Assembly: GCA_003644825.1 (NCBI GenBank)
Contig: QNDJ01000154.1
Coordinates: 1 to 5,287 of the forward strand
From: B21-G16 sp003644825 [NCBI: Candidatus Zhuqueibacterota bacterium]
GTDB lineage: Bacteria > SM23-31 > B21-G16
Direction: 5' to 3'
Length of the DNA stretch: 5,287 bases
The position numbers were made by a program, and so were the translations under genes. A model generated the notes under the pieces. The model did no database searches. It saw nothing but the letters and a program-made list of their open reading frames with translations, and was not told the origin of the DNA. Below are positions 1 to 5,287 of this stretch, piece after piece. How positions within the stretch are numbered: position 1 is the stretch's first letter; each line of letters begins with the position of its first letter.

Positions 1-161
1 GTTACAGGAAATAAAGTCTTTTTTATTCAATGGAAATCAGGAAAAATTTTCCCTTTATAATTAGAGCAAAAAAAAGGAAAACTACACGAAAAAATGAACT
101 TTATAACATACTGTTAATTCAGGAGTTGCAGGGTATGAATATTCAAAAATTAATAATTTTC
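1..161. other. AT-rich upstream region, no supported gene
   Basis: I see no gene that can be supported here. Two + frames are open from the window edge (one to a stop at 58-60, one to a stop at 62-64), so the tail of an upstream gene could lie here, but about 20 codons in each are too few to choose. A short inverted repeat, GGAAAA at 40-45 and TTTTCC at 47-52, has only a one-base spacer and no U-tract, so it is a poor terminator candidate. An activator of the sigma-54 promoter at 162-177 would be expected to bind in or beyond this stretch, but I cannot recognise a specific enhancer site. Confidence 0.5.
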
Positions 162-177
162 TGGCATAAATATTGCA
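162..177 (+). promoter_or_regulatory. sigma-54 (RpoN) -24/-12 promoter for the flagellar operon
   Basis: The sequence TGGCATAAATATTGCA matches every specified position of the sigma-54 consensus TGGCAYRNNNNTTGCW. The invariant GG is at 163-164 and the invariant GC at 175-176, with exactly the required 10 bases between them. Transcription would be expected to start about 12 bases after the GC, near 188, giving a leader of roughly 35 bases before the flgF ATG at 224. In many polar-flagellated bacteria the rod, ring and hook genes are sigma-54 dependent and need an AAA+ activator of the FlrC/FleQ/FlgR type. That an activator of this kind acts here is inference; none is encoded in the window. Confidence 0.85.
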
Positions 178-211
178 CAAAAAATATTCAGATTATTATA
201 TATTATTTAAT

Positions 212-217
212 AGAGGA
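212..217 (+). promoter_or_regulatory. ribosome binding site that fixes the flgF start
   Basis: AGAGGA lies 6 bases before the ATG at 224. It supports this start over an in-frame TTG at 173 that would add 17 residues. The TTG is also part of the -12 element of the promoter, upstream of the expected transcription start, so it should not be on the mRNA. The protein from 224 begins with the usual rod-protein N-terminus (MIKGIYTAASGM). Confidence 0.8.
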
Positions 218-223
218 TTAGCT

Positions 224-955
224 ATGATTAAAGGTATTTATACAGCGGCATCCGGTATGGTTTCACTTCAACTCAAAAATGAAGTAATAACTAACAATAT
301 TGCGAATGTAAATACTACCGGATTTAAAAGAGAAGGAGTTTTTCGTAAAACTCTTATTGATAAAGTGAAGATTTTGAAGATGAATTCCGGTGATTTTGTT
401 AACCTTGATGAAGTGGATGAAGTAAGGATTGATTTCAAACAGGGTAATCTGTATTCTACCGGAAACCCACTGGATACTGCTATCGATGGTAAAGGGTTTT
501 TCAGTGTTCAAACTCCCAATGGAATAAGATATACAAGAAATGGTAGTTTTACTATCGACAATGAGAGATATTTAACGACTACAAACGGTTACCGATTGTT
601 GGGACAGAATGGTCCCATACAGATTAATGGACAGAATGTTTTTATAGGTGATGATGGTTCAATTATAGTTGATGGTCAGATTGTCGAGAATTTGAGAATA
701 ATGGATTTTCCTGAACCTTATGTTATGAATAAAATAGGGGATGGTTTATTTGAGGCAGATGAGACTCAGGCGATACCTGCCCGGAATTTTAAGATAAAGC
801 AGGGGTTTCTTGAAGAATCGAATGTGAATGCAGTAAAGGAAATGGTGGATTTGATTGAGTTGAGCAGGGACTATGACTCAAACCAAAGAACAATAACAAT
901 TCAGGATTCAACCCTTGATAAAGCAGTTAATGAAGTAGGAAGAATTACAAGATAA
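224..955 (+). CDS. flgF: flagellar basal-body rod protein FlgF
   Basis: Proximal-rod component of the flagellar axis, exported by the flagellar type III system and assembled in the periplasm; 243 residues, typical for the family. The N-terminal rod motif is at about 4-38 (YTAASGM at 6-12, then NNIANVNTTGFKRE at 24-37). The central FlgE/F/G fold shows TGNPLDTAIDGKGFF at 79-93 and YTRNGSF at 103-109. The C-terminal helix that packs against the N-terminus in the D0 domain begins near GFLEESNVNAVKEMVDLI (194-211). The protein is assigned as FlgF rather than FlgG because it is shorter, lacks the FlgG-specific stretch after the N-terminal helix, and has the diverged C-terminal SRDYDSNQRT (214-223) where FlgG has AQRAYE. 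No cleavable signal peptide is seen, as expected for this export route. It is the first gene of the operon, directly after the sigma-54 promoter; flgG follows 29 bases later. A generic FlgG-like (FlhO/FlhP type) label is the only alternative, and less likely given the paired FlgG. Confidence 0.93.
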   Translation: MIKGIYTAASGMVSLQLKNEVITNNIANVNTTGFKREGVFRKTLIDKVKILKMNSGDFVNLDEVDEVRIDFKQGNLYSTGNPLDTAIDGKGFFSVQTPNGIRYTRNGSFTIDNERYLTTTNGYRLLGQNGPIQINGQNVFIGDDGSIIVDGQIVENLRIMDFPEPYVMNKIGDGLFEADETQAIPARNFKIKQGFLEESNVNAVKEMVDLIELSRDYDSNQRTITIQDSTLDKAVNEVGRITR

Positions 956-4480: not shown

Positions 4481-5266
4481 ATGGATTTTAATATTGAAAA
4501 TAGAATTAATAATTCCATTGAAAATGCAGAACTTGAGAGAATTAAAAGAAAAATTAGAAACTCAGGGGGTAAATACAGTAAAAAAGATATCGAAACTGTA
4601 GCTAAAAGTTTTGAGGCTATTTTTATATATAAAATGCTTAAAGAGATGAAAAACACTGTACCGGAGAATACCCTTTTTGGAAAGGGATTGGGTAACGATA
4701 TTTTTCAGGATTTTCTCTATGAAGAGTATGCCAACAGGATTTCAGAGAAAGGGTCTGTTGGACCATGGAAGATGATTTTTAATAGTTTATCAAAATATGT
4801 TGAACCCGTTGAAAATAAGAAACATCCTGAGCAGTTTAAAATTTCGAAATTTCAGGGGAATTTACCAACAAAAATAAAAAGATATAATAAAGAAACAGTT
4901 TATGATAAAGTTGAAAGGTATAATCGGATTATTCAGGATGCGTCTTTGAAATATGGAGTGGACCCGGATATAATCAGGGCTATTATAACCCAGGAATCCA
5001 GAGGCAATCCTGGAGCTGTATCTCGTAAAGGAGCTGGTGGATTAATGCAAATACTCGAATCTACAGCGAAAGATTTAGGTATCAGGGATGTTTTTAATCC
5101 TGTTGATAATATTTTTGGTGGTGTTAAATATTTAAAGACATTGCTTGAAAAACACAATGGAAATCTTGAACTTGCTCTGGCTTCTTATAATGCGGGACCG
5201 TCATCAGTAGAGAAATATGGAGGAATTCCTCCATATTTCTCTACTGATGACGGTCCCGCATTATAA
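4481..5266 (+). CDS. flgJ: FlgJ-type rod-cap protein with C-terminal lytic transglycosylase (SLT) domain; 3' end artefactual
   Basis: Two-domain protein with no signal peptide, as expected for FlgJ exported by the flagellar apparatus. The N-terminal rod-binding (rod-cap) domain covers about 37-95, with AKSFEAIFIYKMLKEMK (41-57), then NTLFGKGLGNDIFQDFLYEE (63-82). A charged linker (about 105-145) leads to an SLT/GH23-like domain from about 146. Its hallmarks are the catalytic-glutamate motif ITQESRGNPGAVS (E172), GAGGLMQI (184-191), NPVDNIFGGVKYL (206-218) and ASYNAGP (234-240). Salmonella FlgJ instead has a glucosaminidase-type domain. The start is supported by GTGAGGA at 4467-4473, seven bases before the ATG. 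Residues up to about Y252 (YGGIPPY at 246-252) fit the family. The final FSTDDGPAL and the stop at 5264-5266 are encoded by the reverse complement of upstream sequence and should not be trusted, so the gene is best treated as 3'-truncated. Members of the SLT family normally continue past GGIPPY with a further helix. Confidence 0.92.
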   Translation: MDFNIENRINNSIENAELERIKRKIRNSGGKYSKKDIETVAKSFEAIFIYKMLKEMKNTVPENTLFGKGLGNDIFQDFLYEEYANRISEKGSVGPWKMIFNSLSKYVEPVENKKHPEQFKISKFQGNLPTKIKRYNKETVYDKVERYNRIIQDASLKYGVDPDIIRAIITQESRGNPGAVSRKGAGGLMQILESTAKDLGIRDVFNPVDNIFGGVKYLKTLLEKHNGNLELALASYNAGPSSVEKYGGIPPYFSTDDGPAL

Positions 5267-5287
5267 GAAGCCAGAGCAAGTTCAAGA
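5164..5287. repeat. perfect 124-bp palindrome (62-bp arms, no spacer) at the window end
   Basis: Bases 5226-5287 are the exact reverse complement of 5164-5225, with no mismatch and no loop. The symmetry point lies between 5225 and 5226, inside GGAATTCC. The right arm runs to the last base of the window. The left arm is good coding sequence for the FlgJ SLT domain, including the ASYNAGP motif, so the right arm is the copied one. A perfect palindrome falling inside a conserved domain and stopping the gene is best explained as a fold-back or assembly artefact, not as a terminator or mobile-element end. Confidence 0.97.

Follow-up and report, generated by a model that had tools for sequence, protein, structure and literature searches.

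The perfect palindrome that ends a contig within flgJ is an artefact that very probably stems from fold-back reads

The stretch of DNA analyzed here (the window, 5287 bases) is the entire contig C154 of a draft genome whose 493 contigs total 2,483,551 bases, with a completeness of 83.63, and it ends in a perfect palindrome which is an artefact and no biological feature. The explanation that we regard as very probably correct in full is that reads folded back at a short natural palindrome in flgJ, GGAATTCC, and entered a multi-k de Bruijn assembly in which the true junction was poorly covered. The terminal palindrome is 124 bp long and occupies positions 5164-5287. Its two arms, 5164-5225 and 5226-5287, have 62 nt each, are 100% complementary and are separated by 0 nt of spacer, and the far arm reaches the last base of the contig. 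This geometry agrees with the preliminary description, in which a 62-base exact reverse-complement repeat was reported to extend to the last base of the window.

To place this palindrome in the context of the genome, spacerless palindromes were surveyed in a sample of 142 of the 493 contigs, of which six were fully masked, leaving 136 readable contigs including the window (898,136 bases). The second-longest spacerless palindrome in this sample was 20 bp; the terminal palindrome of C154 is far beyond chance and is not a by-product of base composition. The ends of the readable contigs, 270 in all because two 3′ ends were not part of the sample, were inspected for perfect inverted repeats located at most 300 bases from the end. 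The end of C154 was the only one with arms exceeding 19 nt, while most of the ends in the genome lie outside this sample. This count suggests that fold-backs are not pervasive in this assembly. An RNA element was also considered as a reading of the palindrome, and it was dropped because the Rfam search of the window at gathering thresholds gave no match.

The sequence that should follow the fork was recovered by searching the own genome with window positions 5041-5287, which matched contig C253 in addition to the window itself. The 43 bases at 5187-5229 (plus strand) form an exact run identical to the first 43 bases of C253, and the two sequences diverge at 5230, where C253 reads ACC and the window reads TCC, the A belonging to the true branch and the T to the folded one. 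The missing 3′ end of flgJ is read in frame on C253, where it stops at 120-122. Because the true end of the gene is located there, the whole of 5230-5287 on the plus strand, which is the reverse complement of 5164-5221 placed out of genomic order, is false, and so is the TAA stop codon at 5264-5266 that closes the reading frame as assembled (4481-5266, 261 codons). The genuine 5′ part of flgJ covers 4481-5229 on the plus strand, which corresponds to 249 complete codons and two bases, and it carries the Pfam domains Rod-binding (PF10135) and SLT (PF01464). The continuation on another contig of the same genome supports the earlier proposal that an inverted chimera or assembly fold-back truncates flgJ, and the earlier view that the stop at 5264-5266 is false holds as well. 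That the tail is out of genomic order was also correct, as C253 differs from it, but the boundary had been set at about 5236, and the comparison with C253 moves it to 5230.

The flgJ product of the window is 38-41% identical to the FlgJ proteins of four genomes from the same class. When the parts from C154 and C253 were joined, the resulting 275-amino-acid protein aligned with these four relatives to the C-terminus, while the window's own tail beyond GGIPPY did not align with any of them. The motif pattern of a normal FlgJ C-terminus matched 65 of 80 named loci. In the corrected annotation, the FlgJ protein of this genome has 275 amino acids and C154 joins C253.

The gene content on the two sides of the join was compared using Pfam. 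The window encodes two rod-type proteins (Flg_bb_rod, FlgE/F/G D1, Flg_bbr_C), followed in the list by ChapFlgA, FlgH, FlgI, and the Rod-binding and SLT protein, which is FlgJ. On C253 the end of flgJ is followed by FlgN, FlgK, Flagellin_N, FliW, CsrA in two frames, and MerR, in this order; the Flagellin_N protein is probably FlgL, judged by its place. The join of C154 and C253 thus yields one flagellar stretch, with two rod-type genes, flgA-, flgH-, flgI-, flgJ-, flgN-, and flgK-like genes, fliW, and a csrA-like frame. The distance between flgJ and flgK in the joined sequence is 623 bases. In four of five genomes of the same class (G001, G002, G003, and G005) both genes were well matched and lay in the same orientation on one contig, with flgK starting 691-716 bases beyond the end of the flgJ match. 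The fifth (G004) gave only short matches to flgJ and flgK. Among the first 21 of the 80 named loci, which include those of the four same-class genomes, flgK was located downstream from flgJ in 19, and no flgK was found there in the other two (L182 and L183). On the 5′ side, no neighboring contig was found when window positions 1-250 were compared with the rest of the genome, where the only match was a weak one of 40 bases at 83% (C217). It was also observed that the csrA-like gene located 3′ of fliW (C253 3538-3776) is split over two frames, each half of which matches Pfam CsrA, which suggests a frameshift, either genuine or caused by an error where coverage was thin.

These data bear on the possibility that a linear replicon ends here in a covalently closed hairpin, which was read around its tip. 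Hairpin replicon ends are known from Borrelia and from phages with telomere resolvases, and such a telomere would likewise appear as a palindrome at a contig end. However, C253 continues both the same reading frame and the flagellar gene cluster, the tip would fall within the coding sequence of the conserved SLT domain, and the length of the palindrome equals the presumed k + 1 of the assembly, as described below. The hairpin could be rescued if C253 came from another organism, but the identity of all 43 shared bases, the frame that stays open across the join and the conservation of gene order speak against this. Hence, a hairpin end is close to inconceivable.

The site at which the fold turns was defined by comparing the window with C253. 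The turning site is the natural 8-bp palindrome GGAATTCC at 5222-5229. In the true sequence these perfect 8 bp lie within GGAGGAATTCCACC, a 14-bp near-palindrome with one mismatched pair. No longer palindrome occurs in the 200 nt around the true junction of the joined sequence. The four relatives have palindromes of at most 10-12 bp within the final 240 nt of flgJ, and the longest spacerless palindrome in 99 relative loci is 22 bp. A turning point at a nearly perfect natural palindrome is the feature expected of a library chimera centered on a palindrome. The same turning point could alternatively be explained by a real inverted duplication present in part of the population, with flgJ folded at GGAATTCC in some cells and normal in others. 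The assembly does contain two branches, and a rare true variant would look identical in short reads. On the other hand, the arm stops exactly at the presumed (k + 1)-mer limit, and consequently nothing shows that the inverted sequence exceeds one read. Moreover, none of the 99 relative loci shows such a duplication, and long perfect spacerless palindromes are unstable in many bacteria. We consider this explanation very unlikely, and it is extremely unlikely that a minority of cells carries a real inverted duplication starting from GGAATTCC through which FlgJ loses the end of its transglycosylase domain.

The length of the arms was compared with overlaps between other contigs of the assembly. 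In a de Bruijn graph with k-mer nodes, adjoining contigs have k bases in common. A loose scan for contig overlaps picked up mostly a dispersed repeat family, and exact end overlaps were used instead. The search for exact overlaps identified ones of 123 bases at the ends of two other contig pairs, which were C101 with C9 (L009/L120) and C6 with C16 (L117/L127), and one further partial end match of 45 bases (L006 with L124). The two exact 123-base overlaps suggest that k was probably 123 in the last round of the assembly. The 124 bp of the terminal palindrome would then equal k + 1, as expected for a self-complementary end in a de Bruijn graph, and the 62-nt arm is probably half of this value, while a biological length is unlikely. 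As judged from the comparison of the arms, this k value and the toy assembly described below, the feature at 5164-5287 would be a single (k + 1)-mer that is its own reverse complement if k = 123. The true continuation is present elsewhere in the assembly and shares bases up to the fork, but their number is 43 and not the last k, which suggests that the assembly graph forked here in a preceding round with k = 43. A literature search on palindromes and assembly, which was not exhaustive, found nothing on a k + 1 rule for palindromes at contig ends. The same overlap data showed that C101 and C9, as well as C6 and C16, could be neighbors in the genome.

The loose scan also brought up another feature of the genome. 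Approximately positions 1-2060 of contig C340 (L072) are a patchwork of dispersed repeats with many short palindromes; the copies belong to several families, stand in direct or inverted orientation and are 60-96% identical. Short pieces of this patchwork were also present in L006, L039, L042, L052, L058, L060, L077, and L080, near the ends of several contigs, and the dispersed repeats in L072, L039, and L077 gave no Rfam match at gathering thresholds.

Both overlap lengths can be compared with published assembly settings. One study describes the use by JGI of MEGAHIT with the k list 23, 43, 63, 83, 103, 123 (PMC6258724), and the identical list is given in another (PMC6081815). The value of 43 from the C253 overlap and that of 123 from the other contig pairs both occur in the list used by JGI. 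From these two overlaps of 123 bases and one of 43, rather than from any record of the assembly, we infer that this genome was assembled by MEGAHIT with that k list.

The behavior of fold-back reads in such a graph was analyzed using a toy de Bruijn assembly. The input comprised 150-base reads sampled from the joined true sequence in such a way that none crossed the true junction, 70-base reads that crossed it instead, and fold-back reads with their turn at 5225/5226; each k was run separately. The toy differs from MEGAHIT in that it is a plain graph without error removal, local assembly or hand-over between k values. With fold-back reads and k = 43, the upstream contig ended at 5229 and the downstream contig started at base 1 of C253, which is the same base at which the 43-base overlap begins. 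The fork likewise halted the upstream contig at 5229 at k values of 23 and 63. At k = 83 and k = 103 the terminal palindromes were 84 and 104 bases long, and at k = 123 the upstream contig ran to 5287, where it carried a palindrome of 124 bases, and its last 200 bases were the same as those of the window. The downstream contig at k = 123 began at base 44 of C253, which suggests that the actual start of C253 fits k = 43 alone.

The requirement for poor coverage of the true junction was seen in variants of the toy. With full true coverage and fold-back reads, both contig ends at k = 43 were as before, while at k = 123 the true junction was assembled through and the fold-back became a separate 150-base piece ending in the 124-bp palindrome. 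When the coverage was thinned, the fold-back piece was again separate. Because the fold-back remained separate in the variants in which 150-base true reads spanned the junction, the end of the window would require that the junction was hardly crossed by full-length true reads.

The toy is also relevant to the possibility that the palindrome is a pure graph error of the assembler, in which no chimeric read was involved. The end of the contig does coincide with a property of the graph, k + 1. However, the natural palindrome of 8 bp is shorter than 23, the k with which the inferred list begins, and without fold-back reads the toy, which unlike MEGAHIT has no local assembly, yielded terminal palindromes of only 2, 2, and 8 at k = 23, 43, and 123, respectively. 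Hence, at least in the toy, fold-back reads appear to be needed for a plain de Bruijn graph to make the fold, and a pure graph error is very improbable.

The palindrome, the fork, the true continuation and the 123-base overlaps are observed, and they are consistent with the following course of events. A few inverted chimeric reads would have folded over at the natural GGAATTCC of flgJ, possibly because 3′ ends paired at the near-palindrome and were extended during end repair of the library or during amplification. A multi-k de Bruijn assembler with k up to 123 would then have met two branches at 5229, the true one beginning with A and the folded one beginning with T. If the true junction was poorly covered, the folded branch alone could have been carried to k = 123, where the path would reach a self-reverse-complementary edge of 124 bases. 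The contig would stop at this edge because the next edge is the same contig read backwards. The true continuation would be left as a separate contig, C253, which starts 43 bases before the fork. In this course of events, the existence of the chimeric reads, the poor coverage of the junction and the way in which the chimeras formed are those steps which we infer. As to the source of the fold-back reads, the lack of an intervening deletion and the single affected end among 270 favor a rare event in library preparation, while multiple displacement amplification (MDA) or another source is possible.

The case of C154, together with the toy assembly, suggests a simple check of short-read assemblies, in which a perfect palindrome of exactly k + 1 at a contig end would point to fold-back reads rather than to a biological feature. 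The sequence missing at such an end may be located on a contig that shares a smaller k value, as judged from this one case and the toy.

When compared with known artefacts and systems, the end of C154 resembles the hairpin telomeres of linear replicons in having a perfect inverted repeat at a contig end. Hairpin telomeres end the replicon, while here the true sequence goes on in the same gene on C253. The inverted chimeras of MDA arise by re-annealing at short complementary segments (PMC1855051), and they are similar to the fold-back in the inverted orientation of the join and in such re-annealing. However, more than 85% of the MDA chimeras described there were inverted with an intervening deletion (PMC1855051), whereas the arms of C154 have neither spacer nor deletion. 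Many joins throughout the library would also be expected from MDA, and a fold-back was present at one of 270 contig ends, although contig ends are an insensitive measure of such joins. Another parallel is provided by the PDSM model, in which chimeric reads centered on nearly perfect natural palindromes arise in library preparation (PMC10908179). Those chimeras were observed as reads in human capture libraries, while the fold-back described here is known solely from an assembled contig end. In both cases the sequence turns at a nearly perfect natural palindrome and runs back into the opposite strand.
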